From Fimbriimonadia bacterium (lineage in GTDB: Bacteria > Armatimonadota > Fimbriimonadia > Fimbriimonadales > Fimbriimonadaceae): 64,000 nucleotides of DNA. Position 1 is the stretch's first letter, and each line of letters begins with the position of its first letter. Positions 7,992 to 63,818 of the stretch are shown here, piece by piece. The position numbers and the translations under genes were made by a program. The DNA lies in assembly GCA_030430755.1 (NCBI GenBank), contig JAUIKO010000003.1:62001-126000 (forward strand), in the 5' to 3' direction. The notes under the pieces are model-generated. The model did not search any database and was not told the origin of the DNA. It saw nothing but the letters and a program-made list of their open reading frames with translations.

Positions 7992-8298
7992 AATCACCAG
8001 TATAGAATTTACCCGTGCAGAAATTACCACGACTAAAATTTATAATACAGAATACTCATAATAGAGCTAGCTCCTATACATAAGGCCGCACTAATGCAAT
8101 TCACCAGTATGGCTGGATAAAGTTAAAATTCACCCATACAACCCCGCGCACATGTAGATACTTGCCTAATATAAAAATCACCATTAATCAATGGCCAGTA
8201 TAGCATCCACCAGTAACAGCATCCACACAAGTAACAGCATCTACACAAGTAACAGCATCCACCAATTACGATACCACCAAGGCAAAATGAACCCATGA
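7992..8298. repeat. Degenerate short-repeat tract in gene-poor gap
   Basis: The gap 7884-8429 holds no convincing gene. Within it, the phrase CACCAGTAT or CACCAGTA recurs (7992-8010, 8098-8110, 8208-8216), and three 18-bp units GTAACAGCATCCACACAA stand in tandem at 8213-8230, 8231-8248 and 8249-8266, the last one diverged. The unit length is a multiple of three, so each unit could encode six residues (VTASTQ), but the frame is stopped just upstream. A short ATG frame (8191-8298) merely follows the repeat. This looks like the remains of a repeat-rich coding region or a local microsatellite. Confidence 0.5.
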
Positions 8299-8429
8299 AG
8301 TAACTCTTACAGAAGTCATTTGTATATAAAATCCCATATCCACTGAAATTTGCTTTTTTTCTTGATTACATAATGCACTTATAGAAAACATAGATTTAAT
8401 ATCTGTTTAATATTAGTATTCAATTACAA

Positions 8430-21907: not shown

Positions 21908-22561
21908 TTATGATGATGTATGAGCGTGTTCTGAAAAGAATGCATTCACTTTCAACTCTGTATCATCCAGTTTTTTCTGATCTATTGGATCTTTAGCAGG
22001 ATGTACACTTGGGTGTTCAGCTGAAGATTTAGGTTGTTCTGAATCGATTTCGGATTTATCTTCAGTATGATTTAAATTCTTACTTGCATTATCTTGCCAA
22101 CCTAAAGCATGCCAGAACTTATCCAAATAACCTCCTGAAGAAGCTTCTTTTTGTGAAGTTTTATCATCTTTTTTTTCAGAATAATCTTCTTTTCCAGTTA
22201 TATACTTCCAAAAAGCGCTCATATATCCATCAGAAGCGCCTGTCATAGAATCTTTTACTTTACCACCTACTTTTTTGGATTGCTCCCAAAACCAAGATCC
22301 TGACTCTTTTGCCGCTTGCCCAATAAACATAAGCTGAACGGTTGCCACTTTATAGGGATATACAATAGATAAAGCAGTTATATAGTTTACAGGGTATGGC
22401 AGATAGTTTATAGCCTTTCTAGCTAAGAAGGATTCGTTAATCTCCTTATCAATCTGATCAATTTTACTAGAGATACTACTAATACTGGACGCTGATGAAG
22501 TTCTGTTCATAACTGTATTTTTTTCAACATGAGTTTGCATATACTCTTTTAACAGGTCCAT
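21908..22561 (-). CDS. Second half of a tandem exported-protein pair, out of frame
   Basis: This 217-residue reading frame has no signal peptide and no good ribosome site (the AAGGA is one base from its ATG). Residues about 45-130 (ARKAINYLPYPVN then FWEQSKKVGGKVKDSM) are clearly related to the preceding gene's AKEAMDKLPTPLN and TWNWTKEKGKGVYN, so the two are tandem paralogues. Its frame stays open upstream of the first ATG, through DLVPGNVEKD, up to an A9 run at 22592-22600; with A8 the two frames would join into one two-repeat secreted protein of about 390 residues. It may therefore be a detached C-terminal half. No family is recognised. Confidence 0.55.
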   Translation of the reverse strand: MDLLKEYMQTHVEKNTVMNRTSSASSISSISSKIDQIDKEINESFLARKAINYLPYPVNYITALSIVYPYKVATVQLMFIGQAAKESGSWFWEQSKKVGGKVKDSMTGASDGYMSAFWKYITGKEDYSEKKDDKTSQKEASSGGYLDKFWHALGWQDNASKNLNHTEDKSEIDSEQPKSSAEHPSVHPAKDPIDQKKLDDTELKVNAFFSEHAHTSS

Positions 22562-23078
22562 ATCCTTCTCTACATTGCCCGGTACTAAATCTTTTTTTTT
22601 CTTTCTCTCGCTCTTTTTCTCCTAGGAAATAGCTAAATATAGATTGATATGCTTGTAGGGTGCGATTATAGACTCCTTTTCCTTTTTCTTTCGTCCAATT
22701 CCAGGTATCTTGTGTTTTCTGAGTAATCATTGAAGGTAAATCATTCACACTATTTTTAACATAAGATTTGCATACTCCGTAAAACTCAGATGGATATAAT
22801 TTAAACATGGCCATGATAAAATTTAACGGAGTGGGAAGTTTATCCATGGCTTCTTTTGCACTTTTAGAATGAGCAATATCACTTTCCAATTTCTCTCTAA
22901 AAGATAGACTCTTATTAGAATCCTCCATCTTTAAGACTTTTTCAGCTTTCTTTACAGATTGAGAATCCGTTTGAGACAAGTCGCTTCCATATGAAAAAAT
23001 CATCATACAACATACCGTATTTACACATATGATAAAGCTGGTTATTTTTTTTATTCTAAACATCTTATACACTTCCAT
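22524..23078 (-). CDS. Exported protein of unknown function, first tandem copy
   Basis: The 184-residue product has a signal peptide (start probably at residue 6; hydrophobic core IICVNTVCCMMIFSYG). A helical region follows with AKEAMDKLPTPLNFIMAMFK and TWNWTKEKGKGVY, paralogous to the next gene. The last 21 residues, after a run of Lys and Glu, are read from the frame that the downstream gene does not use and are probably an artefact of a one-base slip in the A9 tract. The two genes overlap by 38 bases. Located between small lipoprotein frames and the MerR-like gene, it belongs to a cluster of small envelope proteins. No family is recognised. Confidence 0.6.
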   Translation of the reverse strand: MEVYKMFRIKKITSFIICVNTVCCMMIFSYGSDLSQTDSQSVKKAEKVLKMEDSNKSLSFREKLESDIAHSKSAKEAMDKLPTPLNFIMAMFKLYPSEFYGVCKSYVKNSVNDLPSMITQKTQDTWNWTKEKGKGVYNRTLQAYQSIFSYFLGEKEREKEKKRFSTGQCREGYGPVKRVYANSC

Positions 23079-23114
23079 TTATGCTCTCTTTGTAATACAT
23101 TTTTTATCAAATAA

Positions 23115-23327
23115 CTAATTATTTTGCTTAATTAAAACGGGACTCTCAACTTCTTGATTTTTATTGCTATCTACAAGTTCATGATACTCTGCTGGAGTCC
23201 AATTGTAATCAGAGGCGCTAAGATTCGGTTTTATATTATAATCTTCAAATAATTTAAATATCTTTTGGTCTAATTCTTTTAGAGTACTTCTGCTCGCTTC
23301 TAACTCACTCACGAGTTTATCATGCAC
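23115..23327 (-). pseudogene. C-terminal part of an interrupted lipoprotein
   Basis: This 70-codon frame begins at a GTG with no ribosome site. It is in the same frame as the lipoprotein fragment upstream; only a TAG at 23361-23363 and eleven sense codons lie between them. The joined text would give a coiled-coil-forming helix across the stop (KERKTELIRFEN, stop, ADSIKQASEK, then LVSELEASRSTLKELDQKI), so this is most likely the detached end of one 150- to 160-residue lipoprotein. It could be a pseudogene or a genuine amber read-through. Confidence 0.55.
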
Positions 23328-23360
23328 ACTTTTTTCAGAAGCTTGTTTAATTGAATCGGC

Positions 23361-23606
23361 CTAATTCTCAAAACGAATTAATTCTGTTTTTCTTTCCTTT
23401 AAATACTCTTCTTCTTGTTTAAATACTTCATTAGGTACGTGCAATGCGCCGTTACTCAACGACTTTTTTCCTATGCTATCCATACCAGGAAAAATATCAC
23501 TCATTGTAAAACATCCTGTTAGCAACATCGTCAATATGACAAATCTGATAGTATTCATACAAATTTTTCTCAACAAACAATCCTCATTAGTATTTTTATC
23601 AATCAT
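23361..23606 (-). CDS. Small lipoprotein, cut short by an in-frame amber stop
   Basis: The frame has 81 codons; the real start is probably the ATG at residue 17 (MNTIRFVILTMLLTGC), which gives a lipoprotein signal with lipobox LTGC. The mature part is acidic and ends in a Glu/Lys-rich helix that breaks at TAG 23361. The frame continues openly beyond the stop for another 81 codons. As it stands it yields a stub of about 50 residues anchored to a membrane. No function can be assigned. Confidence 0.55.
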   Translation of the reverse strand: MIDKNTNEDCLLRKICMNTIRFVILTMLLTGCFTMSDIFPGMDSIGKKSLSNGALHVPNEVFKQEEEYLKERKTELIRFEN

Positions 23607-24732: not shown

Positions 24733-25116
24733 TTAGTTCGTGTACTTCCCTTCTTCTAGTTTAGAAGAGATGGTGAAGCTATCTGTATCGGAATAATGAT
24801 TAGAGGAAACTCCTCCAGATACCTGATCTAAATCCTCTATCCCCAACTCTTCACTACCCTTTTTTTTATTTATGGCATCAAATTCATATGAACTATAGTT
24901 TCCTGATGGATGCCGTAGAACAATCATTATTTCCATCTCTTGTTCTTCTATCAGTGTAATTTTCAATGAACTTACTTTTGATATCCCTAACTCTTCACAT
25001 ACGACGTCTTTGGGATTACTCACAAGTCTCTCTCGAAAAGATTTACTTGATGATGCCATAGCTTCAATATTTATTTTTTTACAGTTAAGGCTTTTTTCTG
25101 TGAATTGCCTTTTCAT
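24733..25116 (-). CDS. NHLP-type RiPP precursor peptide
   Basis: The 127-residue product looks like a nitrile-hydratase-like leader peptide (NHLP) precursor. SFRERLVSNPKDVVCEELGI at about 26-45, then SSLKITLIEEQEMEIMIVL, match the NHLP core, which in this family guides modifying enzymes. ELGIEDLDQVSGG ends at Gly102, the double-glycine site usually cut by a C39 peptidase-ABC exporter. The predicted core is the 25 residues after it (VSSNHYSDTDSFTIS and SKLEEGKYTN): no Cys, eight Ser/Thr. The ATG at 25116 lies eight bases behind GGAG; an ATG just before it is also possible. No modifying enzyme, protease or exporter gene is in the window, so the pathway partners would have to lie elsewhere. Confidence 0.8.
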   Translation of the reverse strand: MKRQFTEKSLNCKKINIEAMASSSKSFRERLVSNPKDVVCEELGISKVSSLKITLIEEQEMEIMIVLRHPSGNYSSYEFDAINKKKGSEELGIEDLDQVSGGVSSNHYSDTDSFTISSKLEEGKYTN

Positions 25117-25299
25117 CATTATTTCTCCAAATGTAAACAATATAATGGTTGGTATAAAATTTGCAGTAATAGGTATTTAGGACTAATTTCTGCTTGTATA
25201 TATTGAAATTCTTTTTTCACGTGAGATATCCTGCTTATATTTTTTTTTAGAAAAAATATTTTTGATTTAAATGATCTAAATAAAGAGTAAAATTTCTTC

Positions 25300-25926
25300 A
25301 TGAAAACACCGTTTTTAAGTATTTTTTTTAGAATAACCTGCATCTTTCTATTAAATTTAACTTACGCTAAAGCATCACAAACCCCTCAACCCACCACCAT
25401 GTATGACATATTAGACTCCATGAAAGTAAATGTTTTTTATGGCAACTACACTCCTACGGACAAAAACACGCAGAAATTATTCGGGAAAAGATGGCTTCAC
25501 TTTGGTATCAATTGTAAAACGGAATCAGATCTCAATGGTACGCATCCTGTATTTTTTTTCGATATTCTACACAAAAAAAGATCGAACGATCTTTCAGAGG
25601 AAAAAAAAAGCAATTCCGAAAACAGTAATCTCCTCTCCTTTTTTTCATGTATGCCTAGTATTGGTTTTTCACATTCCATAGGTTCTGATACGTCCAGAAT
25701 TCAACTATACTCCTGTATTGGCCCAAGAATAGATCTGTATCAGTCGGAAACATCCCAATTTCAATTAGGCTGGCATCTGAACTTTGGACTAGGAGTGAAC
25801 ATTAAAAAACTCATAACATTTGAGGCATCTTATCATCTTGGCAGTAAAATAGAAGAGGTTAATATTGATGGTTTCCGTATATCCATTCAAGCAAGATTAT
25901 TGGAAAGCAAGCATATTACTGGTTAA
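25300..25926 (+). CDS. Probable outer-membrane beta-barrel protein
   Basis: A 208-residue exported protein: signal peptide (about 1-25, ending AKASQ), then alternating polar/hydrophobic strands such as WHLNFGLGVNIKKLITFEAS and a C-terminal strand GFRISIQARLLES. This pattern and length fit a small eight-strand barrel, but no family motif is recognised. It starts divergently from the RiPP precursor region with 183 bases to that gene's ATG, and is followed 62 bases later by the pseudopilin operon. Confidence 0.6.
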   Translation: MKTPFLSIFFRITCIFLLNLTYAKASQTPQPTTMYDILDSMKVNVFYGNYTPTDKNTQKLFGKRWLHFGINCKTESDLNGTHPVFFFDILHKKRSNDLSEEKKSNSENSNLLSFFSCMPSIGFSHSIGSDTSRIQLYSCIGPRIDLYQSETSQFQLGWHLNFGLGVNIKKLITFEASYHLGSKIEEVNIDGFRISIQARLLESKHITG

Positions 25927-50387: not shown

Positions 50388-52916
50388 ATGAATAAATTTA
50401 AATACTTGTACACCATACCTTTCATTGCATCTAGCTTCAACTTACAGATTGTAAAAAGTAACGATCATCACACCAGTGAAACACAGAATGTTGAGGTGAT
50501 GAATAATGCAACCAGTCATAATCCAGAATCATCTAAAATAGATACAGAAAGTTTAGAAGAAAATCTTGATACTATTTTCCAGGATCTTCCAACGCTAGAT
50601 GTTTTATTAGAAAAATATATTAAGTCTAACATTAGTAACCCTGGTGATTTTCCTATAAAAGACTTAAGTGTAGAATCTCTTAAAACCATCTCCCTAAACG
50701 ATATAAATCAAGATGAGATTCCTGAAGATATTAAACTCTTCGGCAAAAGTGAAAGTGAATCTATCGATTTTGAACAACTGATAAAAAATAACGAAGTTGA
50801 AGATTTTCAAATAGATCCAAGCAACACTTTAGAGCTTAACCTCGGCCAACTTATGAATTCAATACAATCAGAGAAAGACTCAAATGAAACGGATCATGAA
50901 AACACTGATAATGAACAACAACAAAATTCTTTAGAAGACCTACTCTCCTTTGATCCATTTAAAGAAGATCTTATGCCTGAAAAAAAAGCAACGGACGCAG
51001 TATCTCATCCAACTGAAGATTCTTCCTCAAATTCTGATCCATCTCATTCAAATAACACAGATAATCCTTCAAGCTCTAATAATTGGCTAGAATCATTTAT
51101 TAAAAAAGTACAAGAAGCAAAAGACGATATTGCACAAGAAAAACAGAATAAGGAAGAAAATGAATCTAACAATAATATCACACCTCCTGATCAACTGGAA
51201 GAAGATTACAAACCAGAAACACCCGTTGAACAAGAAGAACCAGCTGATACGCCAAGACCAGAATCACCAAGACCAGAATCACCAAGACCAGAAACACCTA
51301 GAGCTGATACACCTAGAGCAGAAACGCCTCCTTCTGAAAATAACAATCCAGAAGATGAAGATAAAGGAGGTACAGAGCAGTATGATCCAGAAAATGATTA
51401 TCAGATCATGCTACAAGCGGTTCTCAAAAACGACTATAAAATAAACAATAACATCTTAAATGATCCTATCGTGCTAGAAGCTGTTAAGAGAATTAATAGC
51501 CACGGGCTTTTGCAGCAAATGCAGCAAAGAGCTATACAAGATGCTAATAAGATCAAACAAGAGAACAGTCCAGAATCACCAAGAGCTGAAACACCTGGGC
51601 CAGAATTACCAAGACCTGAAACACCTAGAGCTGATACGCCAAGAGCTGAAACACCTCATTCTGAAAATAACAATCCAGAAGATGAAGATAAAGGAGATAC
51701 ACAGCAGTATGATCCAGAAAATGATTATCAGATCATGCTACAAGCGGTTCTCAAAAACGACTATAAAATAAACAATAACATCTTAAATGATCCTATCATG
51801 CTAGAAGCTGTTATTAGAATCAATAAAATAAACAATAACATCTTAAATGATCCTATCGCGCTAGAAGCTGTTATTAGAATCAATAGCCAGGGTTTGCTAC
51901 AACAAATGCAGCAAAGAGCTATGCAAGATGCTAATAAGATCAAACAAGAGAACAGACCTAAAACACCCGTTGAACAAGAAGAGCCAACTGAATCGCCCAG
52001 ACCAGAATCACCAAGACCAGAAACGCCTAGAGCTGATACACCTGTTGAACAAGAAAAGCCAGCTGAATCGCCAAGACCTGAAACGCCAAGAGCTGAAACG
52101 CCTCCTTCTGAAAATAACAATCCAGAAGATGAAGGTAAAGGAGGTACAGAGCAGTATGATCCAGAAAATGATTATCAGATCATGCTACAAGCGGTTCTCA
52201 AAAACGACTATAAAATAAACAATAACATCTTAAATGATCCTATCGTGCTAGAAGCTGTTAAGAGAATTAATAGCCACGGGCTTTTGCAGCAAATGCAGCA
52301 AAGAGCTATGCAAGATGCTAATAAGATCAAACAAGAAAACAGACCAAAAACACCCGTTGAACAAGAAGAGCCAGCTGAAACGCCAAGAGCTGAAACGCCT
52401 CATTCTGAAAATAACAATCCAGAAGATGAAGGTAAAGGAGAAACTAGAGCTGATACACCAACAGCTGAAACACCATCAGATCAAGGTGAAGCAAAACAAG
52501 ATATAGAAGAGTTTTTCACCATAGCAGAGCAAGAATTTGATATTCAACTAAAAGAGGTATCCGATATCTTGAATAATATATGTATCACTATTGCTCAAAA
52601 ATTTAAATCCAGCAAACAAAATCGAGAATTCAGTACTATTCCAAACATAAGTGGAGCTGTCATCATAGCGATAACAGGAAGCCAGAAGAACAATCTTGTA
52701 TATAGTACTAATGCTGATCTACAAACGGTTATCAACCAACTAATAACTGTAAGAAACTTCTTTTTACAAGATAAAGTAAGGAATAAATACGATCTTGATG
52801 AGCTTTATAGATTATTTTTATCAAAAATCACAAATAATGTTATAGAGAATACAGATAGTAATCAAATCCAAGTCCTAAATATTGATTGGGTTCATAAATT
52901 ATTCAATACAAAGTAG
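50388..52916 (+). CDS. Exported repeat-rich Pro/Glu protein
   Basis: The 842-residue protein has a probable signal peptide, then an acidic Asn/Ser/Glu-rich region. Four blocks of RPESPRPETPRADTPRAETP-like repeats alternate with helical units of about 79 residues (NDYQIMLQAVLKNDYKINNN). The C-terminal 140 residues are free of repeats and end in WVHKLFNTK. The units are nearly identical even at the DNA level, which implies recent duplication. The Pro-rich links look like surface spacers, and many threonines follow Pro. No anchor motif is seen; a role at the cell surface is inference. Confidence 0.8.
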   Translation: MNKFKYLYTIPFIASSFNLQIVKSNDHHTSETQNVEVMNNATSHNPESSKIDTESLEENLDTIFQDLPTLDVLLEKYIKSNISNPGDFPIKDLSVESLKTISLNDINQDEIPEDIKLFGKSESESIDFEQLIKNNEVEDFQIDPSNTLELNLGQLMNSIQSEKDSNETDHENTDNEQQQNSLEDLLSFDPFKEDLMPEKKATDAVSHPTEDSSSNSDPSHSNNTDNPSSSNNWLESFIKKVQEAKDDIAQEKQNKEENESNNNITPPDQLEEDYKPETPVEQEEPADTPRPESPRPESPRPETPRADTPRAETPPSENNNPEDEDKGGTEQYDPENDYQIMLQAVLKNDYKINNNILNDPIVLEAVKRINSHGLLQQMQQRAIQDANKIKQENSPESPRAETPGPELPRPETPRADTPRAETPHSENNNPEDEDKGDTQQYDPENDYQIMLQAVLKNDYKINNNILNDPIMLEAVIRINKINNNILNDPIALEAVIRINSQGLLQQMQQRAMQDANKIKQENRPKTPVEQEEPTESPRPESPRPETPRADTPVEQEKPAESPRPETPRAETPPSENNNPEDEGKGGTEQYDPENDYQIMLQAVLKNDYKINNNILNDPIVLEAVKRINSHGLLQQMQQRAMQDANKIKQENRPKTPVEQEEPAETPRAETPHSENNNPEDEGKGETRADTPTAETPSDQGEAKQDIEEFFTIAEQEFDIQLKEVSDILNNICITIAQKFKSSKQNREFSTIPNISGAVIIAITGSQKNNLVYSTNADLQTVINQLITVRNFFLQDKVRNKYDLDELYRLFLSKITNNVIENTDSNQIQVLNIDWVHKLFNTK
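51333..52440 (+). repeat. Tandem 236-bp repeat units inside the Pro-rich gene
   Basis: Units begin at TCTGAAAATAACAATCCAGA: 51333-51568, 51660-51955, 52107-52342, and a stub at 52404-52440. The first and third are 236 bp; the second is longer by exactly 60 bp. They are separated by variable-length Pro/Glu linkers. The near-identity of codons shows that copies were made or homogenised recently. Confidence 0.9.
51765..51884 (+). repeat. Internal 60-bp tandem duplication
   Basis: Two 60-bp copies (51765-51824 and 51825-51884) encode KINNNILNDPIxLEAVIRIN twice, with a single changed residue (Met versus Ala). The duplication accounts for the extra length of the second large unit. Confidence 0.92.
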
Positions 52917-59787: not shown

Positions 59788-60083
59788 GATTCCACTCTAC
59801 GGGATTTCCTCTGCATCAAATGAATGAGGAGCGACATCACCTTCTGCAGGATACGTACCATCATTCATACCGTGATTATCTGAGTCTGGATGTTCATCAA
59901 AATGAGATTCGCCTACACCATCCTGATCCCATTCAACGGGATTTCCTTCTGCATCAAATGAGTGAGGAGCAACTTTACCCATATAATCTTCAGAACCAGA
60001 AACATACTTTTCATCTTCTGCAGGATAGGTACCATCATTCATATCATGCCCACCAGCGCCAGGATGATCGTCAAAATGAGATC
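59788..60083 (-). repeat. Two-copy coding repeat in the lipoprotein C-terminus
   Basis: Copy 1 at 59788-59910 (123 bp) and copy 2 at 59925-60083 (159 bp) share GGAAATCCCGTxGAxTGG and the HDMNDGTYPAE-type text; copy 2 has 36 extra bases. Copy 1 lacks one base (near 59810), which causes the frameshift. Confidence 0.8.
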
Positions 60084-62217
60084 CACTTCCTGGATGACCG
60101 TGCATATCTTGCTGATGATCTACATGAGATGGATCATATGGATCGTGGCCCTCATCATCGGATGGATAATAAGGTGCACCTGCACTTTGACTAAATCTTC
60201 CTACACTAGCAACTGAATCTTCAAATTCAGGCATATCTACACCCATTTCAACTAAGTGATGTCTAATTTCGTTAAACATCATTTTCATATTTTCTACTTT
60301 TGATTGATCAGATGATCTTGGAGATGCACTTCTTTGATCCATGATAGAATCTAAGTGATCTTTATAAAATCTTGTTACATCTCTCATCTGGTTTTCAACC
60401 TGAGTTACAACCTGATTTATTTTAGAATAGTCATGGGATTTAGGTTTAGTAGAAGATTTTATAGCTTTGAATAGTAGTTCATTAAATCTATGGTTGACCA
60501 TATTAACAAGATGCTCATGGGCTCTATGAGAAACTTCAAATTTGCTCTTTACATCGAGAGCTTTTTCTAACGCTGCTCCAGCTTCTGAATCTACAATGCT
60601 CTGACATTGACCTAACATTTCCAACGTACTCGCAGAAATCGTGTAATCATGTTGGAAAGGACTTCCAGAATGCTCTTTACCATGTTCTCCATGCGGTGGC
60701 ATATATTCAGAATCACTATCTGAAACATAATGATGATCACCATGATCTACCATTGGAACATTCTCATTATCCACTTCTTTGCTCATGTCTGATTCAATAT
60801 CACGGTCAAACATTTCTTTATCTTGCACATGAACATCCTTATCTTTTTGATCATTCACAAAATTTTCTACTGGAACCTGCTTATCAGCCATACTATCAGG
60901 CAACCAAGCATCTTTTTCGCTGTTGTAACTATACTTATATTTAACTTCATCATTCAGCTTAATAGAGATGTTCGATTTATCATGATTAACAACACGGAGA
61001 ATAATTTCTTCACCTTCAAAGGCTCCTTTCATGTATGATAACTTCTCATCTACTTCATTGTAATAAGCTCGTCCAAATTTCATATTATTCAAATCATGGC
61101 TGGAAATAGATTCTCCTGATTCAAGCTTTTGAATCATGGATTTCATATAATTTTCTTCAAAAACCCACTCTGTTTGCTCTTCATTTAAAAAGTATTTATA
61201 ATGATACTTTGCATTCGCTTCCAGATCATATATTCTATATTGATACTCACTTAATCCACCTGTAAAACCTAGTTCTTTTGATATCACAATTGCAGCGCCA
61301 CGCTCACCATAATTGCTCTGTACTCTGAAATCTATACTACTAACATTTAAATCATTAACTGTATGTCTACTCTTTATCGAGTCATAATCAGAGTCAGTTA
61401 CAAATTCAGATCTCTTTTGATTTTCATAATCATAATACTCAACATCATGATATTTAGAAGGATAATAGCTTTGATAATCTTTAAACTCAGATACTGTGAA
61501 ATTCTCTTTAGCTAGGATCTTCTTGTACATTTCATGATCAAACTGATCAGCAGTATACAACTGTAATAATTGATCTAAAGACTTAGCATCACTATTCTTG
61601 CTATATTTGTTTTTCCACTCATCACCAGAACTCTCATACATAAAAGTTAAGCTGATTTCTTTATCAACATTCTTTTTTTGAACAAAAATACTTTTCTCAT
61701 CCTCTAAATCTCGAATGTGAAATCTATATTTGGTACCCATTTTATCTTCAAAATCCACCTCAGATGATCCTGATTTATCAGAATCTTTAATAAAAACTAT
61801 ATCTTCAAGTGGGATATCTTTATATTGAATAATATTTTCATAAATAGAGAGTAATCTCTGTACAGTATCAGACTTTTCATCAACTTTCTTCTGTCCATCA
61901 AGCTCTTCACTTTTTGTAGAAATAGCTGTAGTTGTAACGAATGCATCGGGAGCTTTTACAATTTCCGCATCACCACCTGCTAATTTATTTTCTTCAGAAA
62001 CTGAAGATACTGCATCTACATTAGCGACTTTAGACTGACCAGGTGCTACGATCTCCTGACTTGAATCATCACCCGAAATACTTCTGGTCGTTTGATTTTT
62101 TATCGAAGCTTTTGATGATGTAACTCCTAAACCACTGGAAGATCCTCCGCAACCTACCAAACCCATAAAAACAACCATTCCTGCTATGTTACATAGTCTA
62201 TTTTTCCTATACTGCAT
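59797..62217 (-). CDS. Large acidic lipoprotein, C-terminus frameshifted
   Basis: The 806-residue lipoprotein starts at 62217 (GGAG six bases upstream) with signal peptide and lipobox (VGCGGSSSG). The mature part has beta-type segments rich in Asp, Ser, Tyr and His, then a helical region (about 540-650, QCQSIVDSEAGAALEKAL) and a His/Asp/Gly-rich repeat region at the end. The last repeat breaks with DAEEIP and a stop, where the other copy reads DAEGNPVEWDQD: a one-base deletion. The intact gene would run through to 59138. Surface location is likely; no family is recognised. Confidence 0.75.
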   Translation of the reverse strand: MQYRKNRLCNIAGMVVFMGLVGCGGSSSGLGVTSSKASIKNQTTRSISGDDSSQEIVAPGQSKVANVDAVSSVSEENKLAGGDAEIVKAPDAFVTTTAISTKSEELDGQKKVDEKSDTVQRLLSIYENIIQYKDIPLEDIVFIKDSDKSGSSEVDFEDKMGTKYRFHIRDLEDEKSIFVQKKNVDKEISLTFMYESSGDEWKNKYSKNSDAKSLDQLLQLYTADQFDHEMYKKILAKENFTVSEFKDYQSYYPSKYHDVEYYDYENQKRSEFVTDSDYDSIKSRHTVNDLNVSSIDFRVQSNYGERGAAIVISKELGFTGGLSEYQYRIYDLEANAKYHYKYFLNEEQTEWVFEENYMKSMIQKLESGESISSHDLNNMKFGRAYYNEVDEKLSYMKGAFEGEEIILRVVNHDKSNISIKLNDEVKYKYSYNSEKDAWLPDSMADKQVPVENFVNDQKDKDVHVQDKEMFDRDIESDMSKEVDNENVPMVDHGDHHYVSDSDSEYMPPHGEHGKEHSGSPFQHDYTISASTLEMLGQCQSIVDSEAGAALEKALDVKSKFEVSHRAHEHLVNMVNHRFNELLFKAIKSSTKPKSHDYSKINQVVTQVENQMRDVTRFYKDHLDSIMDQRSASPRSSDQSKVENMKMMFNEIRHHLVEMGVDMPEFEDSVASVGRFSQSAGAPYYPSDDEGHDPYDPSHVDHQQDMHGHPGSGSHFDDHPGAGGHDMNDGTYPAEDEKYVSGSEDYMGKVAPHSFDAEGNPVEWDQDGVGESHFDEHPDSDNHGMNDGTYPAEGDVAPHSFDAEEIP

Positions 62218-63347: not shown

Positions 63348-63818
63348 ATGAAATGGAAAAACTTTTATATCTGGAATAAACGACTTCCCCACTGGCGTGC
63401 AGATTCGGTTATGTACTACATAACGTTTAAACATCGAATCAGTCTAGATGAACCTGCACTATCTAAAATTTTTTCTAATATTCTAAAGACAAATGGTAGA
63501 AAATGGGATATCCTAGCACTATCTACAAGCGCTGATGCAACGCATATGTTGGCTACATTTCAATCACATCAAGCTTCTAAAGCAAAAGAAATTGCCAAAA
63601 TCATAGAACCTTTAAAGCTTAAAATTCAACAAGATATCATAAAACATTCCTGCAATACGCACACATTACTTTTTTATCAAGAAAGTTATGACCATATCAT
63701 ACGGAACGAAGAAGATTTAGATTCACACTTAAATATTATAAAATCCATTCACAACCCGGATTTACTATGGATAAATCAACCCTCATTAGAAAATTTTGAT
63801 TTTCTAATGAATGAATAA
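63348..63818 (+). CDS. Domesticated Y1-transposase (RAYT)-like protein
   Basis: The 156-residue protein resembles REP-associated tyrosine transposases: KRLPHWRADSVMYYITFKH at the start, WDILALSTSADATHMLATFQ where RAYTs have the HxH motif (NHVHLL), and FYQESYDHIIRNEEDLDSHL followed by IHNPDLLW, the usual YxxxIRxxeEldxHLxYI.xNP pattern. The first His of HxH is missing (Asp-Ala-Thr-His) and the catalytic Tyr position of the C-terminal helix is unclear. No terminal repeats are seen around the gene. It may be a domesticated DNA-binding protein. The ATG at 63348 has no strong ribosome site. Confidence 0.65.
   Translation: MKWKNFYIWNKRLPHWRADSVMYYITFKHRISLDEPALSKIFSNILKTNGRKWDILALSTSADATHMLATFQSHQASKAKEIAKIIEPLKLKIQQDIIKHSCNTHTLLFYQESYDHIIRNEEDLDSHLNIIKSIHNPDLLWINQPSLENFDFLMNE

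Follow-up and report, generated by a model that had tools for sequence, protein, structure and literature searches.

Introduction

An NHLP leader is usually taken to indicate a RiPP cluster. In the prochlorosins, Nif11-type precursors with unrelated cores are dispersed over the genome and share one LanM enzyme, ProcM. One passage in the literature describes ProcM as a solitary promiscuous enzyme (PMC10783134). NHLPs have also been noted in species that lack both TOMM and lanthionine enzymes, and exporter and NHLP leaders occur together across bacteria (Haft et al. 2010, PMC2887384).

FkbM-family enzymes of known pathways are mostly O-methyltransferases acting on PKS, NRPS and other products (PMC9259500). 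EreM, which belongs to the same family and acts on the proteusin pythonamide, adds methyl groups to backbone amides of a core that follows an NHLP leader (PMC9259500; PMC11285071). Asn is the residue methylated by PoyE and AerE of polytheonamide and aeronamide, and both of these enzymes are unrelated to FkbM (PMC11285071).

The locus compared here with these systems is an NHLP-leader precursor gene in a window of 64 kb, the whole stretch of DNA that was analysed. The window is C19:62001-126000 of a 1.48-Mb genome of 19 contigs (G000). A sister species of the same genus (G001) and the other genomes of the phylum were used for comparison.

Precursor gene and NHLP leader

The precursor gene is located at 24733..25116 of the window and encodes 127 aa; it was recognised by a TIGR03793 match and an orthologue in the sister species. 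It is read from the minus strand, a point absent from the earlier note on this DNA. The ORF starts at 25116, and an alternative ATG is present at 25119 (tandem ATGATG). A Shine-Dalgarno-like GGAG upstream of the ATGATG start (25125..25128, minus strand), observed directly in the sequence, is a strong ribosome-binding site.

Residues 1–102 (24811..25116, minus strand) form the leader, a nitrile-hydratase-alpha-derived domain according to TIGR03793 and PDB profile matches. The NCBIfam model TIGR03793 matched residues 19–102 with an E-value of 4.5e-8 and 32.8 bits, below the curated cut-off of 50.9 bits, which was reached by none of the NHLPs of the source genome. The model matched all 14 aligned NHLP members (the window ORF and 13 relatives). 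When the profile of these 14 members was compared with all PDB sequences, the top match was the solved NHLP protein 9cjx (E 7e-13), followed by nitrile hydratase alpha chains (E 1e-9, C-terminal part only). By this profile, the NHLP leader lacks the metal-binding part of nitrile hydratase alpha, to which it is homologous. The only tblastn match of the precursor in 72,556 plasmids was a gene that carries an NHLP precursor annotation, and Pfam alone gave no significant family for the ORF. The AlphaFold model of the precursor had a pLDDT of only 64, and its best Foldseek match was the proteusin 9cjx (E 0.75); this predicted fold match is only supportive. The earlier note had recognised an NHLP leader, and the TIGR03793 check agreed with it. 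By sequence homology, which suffices despite the score below the cut-off, the window leader is a divergent member of the NHLP family.

The leader is closed by the double-glycine cleavage motif ELGIEDLDQVSGG (24811..24849, minus strand), with L-12, L-7, V-4, G-2 and G-1, at the site that had been proposed for cleavage. The bare pattern [LMIVY]x4Lxx[VIL][SA]GG was searched in ORFs of fewer than 260 aa in the readable genome. Eight small ORFs were matched, all of them NHLP genes or a decayed copy, compared with 0.8 on average for shuffled ORFs. Behind the motif lies the core VSSNHYSDTDSFTISSKLEEGKYTN of 25 aa (24733..24810 with the stop codon, minus strand), taken from the ORF translation. The core contains no Cys and 9 Ser/Thr among its 25 residues (chance of about 0.004 among C-terminal 25-mers from the genome), and the earlier description of a Cys-free, Ser/Thr-rich core was confirmed.

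Evolution of leader and core in the sister species

The orthologue of the window gene in G001 is located at L021:9157-9555 and has 36–39% identity. The two cores share 28% identity over 25 aa (z 4.6), with F-I-..KL..G..TN in common, and by sequence their similarity appears weak but recognisable. Between paired orthologues of G000 and G001, leaders were 37–50% identical (z 17–24). The paired cores mostly did not exceed the similarity of shuffled sequences, the window gene being the exception. The comparison of cores between relatives, proposed in the earlier note, had this mixed outcome: most cores could not be aligned, and that of the window gene could be recognised. Conservation in the NHLP set ends at the Gly-Gly site, and the tail behind it is hypervariable. 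In both species, the C15 NHLP genes still have the same neighbours, genes for enoyl-CoA hydratase and biotin carboxylase, despite this general lack of core similarity. Matched genes of the compared loci had a median identity of 54%.

Gene order around the NHLP genes differs between the two species (L007, L010, L021 and L063). HIT-UDG, radC-rluD-lptF and a thymidine-phosphorylase-like gene each lie by or near one NHLP gene in G000 and a different one in G001.

Other NHLP genes in the genome and phylum

With TIGR03793 and the profile built here, six further intact, GG-bearing NHLP ORFs were detected in G000, giving seven in total on four contigs. They are located at C19:139 kb, C19:151 kb, C15:20 kb and C7:63 kb, and as a tandem pair at C4:114-115 kb. 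A decayed copy with stops and frameshifts (G000:C4:113044-113392, minus strand; L009 about 8044-8392) adjoins the intact tandem pair. In one member of this pair, the core is preceded by a doubled cleavage motif (QLNSVAGALNGLRADQLNSVAGG). An NHLP-leader-like ORF without a GG site was also observed at L069:1360-1878 (G000:C6:45532-46050); it had no NCBIfam or Pfam match.

The leader profile was searched across the phylum. NHLP suites were found in G000 and G001, and a single gene was found in G082, which belongs to another family of the phylum. The lone G082 precursor (L055:1489-1773) has a tiny Cys-bearing core (EGLGQGPCSCLVG), and no exporter over the NHLM cut-off was detected in this 64% complete genome.

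The amino acid composition of the seven G000 cores was investigated as a pool. Asn made up 13.5%, compared with 5.2% in large ORFs (5–6% in the proteome), a value reached in 0 of 20,000 samples, and the cores were Gly-rich too. Ser, Thr and Cys were not enriched in the set. Lanthionine or azoline chemistry would call for a core set rich in Ser/Thr/Cys, which this composition test rejected.

Exporter encoded elsewhere in the genome

A complete NHLM export locus was found on contig C6, with hlyD, C39-ABC and ABC genes in one run. The peptidase-ABC protein scored 921.8 bits with TIGR03796 (cut-off 853.3) and the second ABC protein 786.8 bits with TIGR03797 (cut-off 709.4); HlyD was just short of the TIGR03794 cut-off (149.2 against 156.2 bits). 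The C39 peptidase is the only one in the genome. Its domain has the C39 residues Q32, C38, H111 and D127, and a Walker A motif is present in the exporter. A TolC homologue (OEP, E 1.4e-40) is located apart from the export locus at C6:85138-86544. Among 291 genomes of the phylum, G000 and G001, the two members of the genus, were the only ones with a TIGR03796 score over the cut-off. They are also the two that carry the NHLP suites, which shows that exporter and leaders occur together. No NHLP substrate gene was found near the exporter in either species.

The earlier note had called the precursor an orphan. Within the window this was correct, as no exporter or RiPP enzyme was evident among the ORFs of the 64 kb. 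At genome scale the term did not hold: an NHLM exporter and a TolC are encoded on C6, and six more intact NHLP genes are present. It is very likely that the window peptide is cut and exported by this exporter in trans.

The NHLP genes could also be relics of a lost pathway, decaying in a shrinking genome. At 1.48 Mb the genome is small beside those of other family members (about 2–6.5 Mb), and one NHLP copy is clearly decayed. However, the orthologue of the window gene is intact, its leader and cleavage site are conserved, its core is partly conserved, and the exporter motifs are intact. The relic explanation is considered highly improbable.

Search for RiPP modifying enzymes

The LANC and YcaO models gave no match in G000 or G001, and the controls worked. 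Seven radical-SAM proteins were found in G000 (MiaB, MtaB, HemW, MqnC, MqnE, LipA and RlmN), and all seven are housekeeping proteins; the radical-SAM matches of G001 were equal in number. The genome-wide search proposed in the earlier note returned no LanM, YcaO or RiPP radical SAM in the roughly 95% of G000 that could be read, and for NHLP precursors and C39 exporters it recovered six intact genes, one decayed copy and one C39-ABC locus.

A classical or new-class RiPP pathway would require that a maturation enzyme was missed, either in the part of the genome outside the search or in a class without a model. The searches covered about 95% of G000, with C4:1-72000 and the tiny contigs C10 and C11 outside (5% of the genome), and were confined to enzyme classes for which models exist; NHLP leaders serve different enzyme classes (PMC2887384). 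However, searches for the same families in G001 were negative as well. No evident peptide-modifying gene adjoined the NHLP loci that were read; by appearance, the genes around them are housekeeping genes or code for unknown secreted proteins. A missed enzyme of this kind is judged quite unlikely.

FkbM methyltransferase beside the exporter

An FkbM-family gene (FkbM METHYLTRANSFERASE) is divergent from hlyD-pcat-abc in both species. The flanks of this FkbM-exporter module are pnp and gyrB in G000 and other genes in G001, and the four module genes were the only ones found common to both exporter regions. Between the two species, FkbM was the best-conserved module gene with 62% identity, compared with 57%, 51% and 44% for the other three. 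Within its genome, FkbM matched only itself. Elsewhere in the phylum (289 genomes), no homologue came comparably close; the best match had 35% identity over most of its length.

The fixed position and conservation of fkbM argue for a minimal proteusin-type RiPP system, in which the enzyme would act in trans on all scattered NHLP cores, N-methylating backbone or side chains, ahead of cleavage and release by the common exporter. The N-methylation of the NHLP-led pythonamide backbone by EreM is a precedent (PMC9259500; PMC11285071). The Asn-rich core set is consistent with it as well, since Asn is methylated by the unrelated PoyE and AerE (PMC11285071). However, known FkbM enzymes are mostly O-methyltransferases, and the NHLM exporters fetched from other phyla showed no FkbM gene next to them. 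Asn-richness is also usual in disordered secreted tails, and the window core contains only 2 Asn. Methylation in trans is possibly at work, by analogy with EreM and given the FkbM linkage and the Asn/Gly-rich cores. It is the main rival of export without modification, with a tentative standing.

Divergent outer-membrane barrel gene

The neighbour of the precursor gene, divergent from it, is located at 25300..25926 on the plus strand. It encodes a putative outer-membrane beta-barrel of 208 aa with a signal peptide, as indicated by PF13505, the predicted fold and synteny. PF13505 matched the protein with an E-value of 0.0015 and its G001 orthologue with 7.9e-6. The model (pLDDT 62) has 8 predicted strands, and the nearest PDB folds are OmpX, NspA, PagL and OmpA. 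At high score, the barrel gene is confined to G000 and G001.

The pair of barrel and NHLP genes is flanked by aldo-keto reductase and pseudopilin genes in G000, and by radC and a thymidine-phosphorylase-like gene in G001. Because the pair stays together while its surroundings change, the comparison of these two genomes, a small sample, suggests that the two genes are linked. The barrel is probably a specific partner of the window peptide, for example in self-protection, tethering or reception.

Other ORFs in the window

The protein encoded at 50388-52916 (842 aa) looks secreted and contains long repeats of the ESPRPETPRAETP type as well as repeated NDYQIMLQAVLKNDYKINNNILNDPI units. An 806-aa acidic, His-rich, lipoprotein-like protein at 59797-62217 has repeats (MNDGTYPAE, for example) close to its C-terminus. 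The ORF at 63348-63818 resembled, by eye only, a REP-associated (IS200-like) tyrosine transposase. Four small minus-strand ORFs form a run at 21908-23606; some have signal peptides, and those tested had no significant family match.

Proposed mechanism

The favoured reading is a set of dispersed, genus-specific, leader-tagged peptides that use one exporter in trans, undergo no classical RiPP maturation and are most likely unmodified. This reading as a whole is held to be somewhat probable. Its unmodified product is favoured because no LanC or YcaO was found, the radical SAMs are housekeeping proteins, and Ser, Thr and Cys are not enriched. The nitrile-hydratase-derived leader would bring the precursor to the single NHLM exporter encoded elsewhere. 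The C39 domain of the exporter would cut after Gly-Gly (residue 102) and release a 25-residue peptide, and the ABC pair, HlyD and TolC would carry it through both membranes. With no classical maturation step, the peptide would most likely be unmodified on leaving; this is the likelier outcome, judged from the enzyme searches. The NHLP genes, each with its own locus and its own core, would share one exporter, much as class II bacteriocins or microcins do. The outer-membrane barrel would be the probable specific partner of the window peptide; this role, like the biological activity of the peptide, is inferred.

The earlier note had offered two options for a precursor without a local pathway. A leader used only for export was the better supported. 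Classical enzymes acting in trans were not found, and FkbM remains a candidate for such a role. In the fullest form of that alternative, a one-enzyme, many-substrate proteusin system, the FkbM locked to the NHLM exporter would act in trans on about seven NHLP precursors that are scattered and evolve individually, N-methylating their Asn/Gly-rich cores, and the window peptide would work with a dedicated barrel. This combination is rather unlikely.

Comparison with known systems

The genes agree with the NHLP family (TIGR03793; Haft et al. 2010, PMC2887384) in leader homology, GG site, hypervariable tail, several paralogues per genome and correlation with ABC export. In contrast, the window gene is below the cut-off, its core is without Cys, the genes are scattered with none beside the exporter, and no TOMM or LanM enzyme was found. 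The export genes agree with the NHLM exporter (TIGR03794/03796/03797), a type I secretion system, and with Legionella LB2SS/LB3SS (PMC6959600) in a single run of C39-ABC, second ABC and HlyD with TolC elsewhere. Unlike in those systems, a divergent FkbM is a fixed partner here, and no NHLP gene is near the exporter in either species. The pythonamide/EreM proteusin (PMC9259500) has the same combination of an NHLP-led precursor and an FkbM-family methyltransferase in one genome. However, no RiPP radical-SAM epimerase or other maturase was found here, enzyme and substrates are unlinked, and the FkbM activity is putative. The prochlorosins are alike in having many leader-bearing precursors with unrelated cores on one machine. 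They differ in that the leader here is of the NHLP and not the Nif11 type, no lanthionine synthetase was found, and the common machine is the exporter.

Instead of the usual RiPP cluster, this genus keeps its NHLP genes, with their fast-changing tails, as a scattered suite; it has a single exporter, and the searches found no standard modifying enzyme. The question of 2010, whether NHLP leaders are for export first and chemistry second, becomes testable in one small system. With it comes an FkbM enzyme that may methylate peptides and would then have several natural substrates. NHLPs without TOMM or lanthionine enzymes are of a known kind, and what is new is a suite that is stable, scattered and common to the genus, together with a single exporter-FkbM module.
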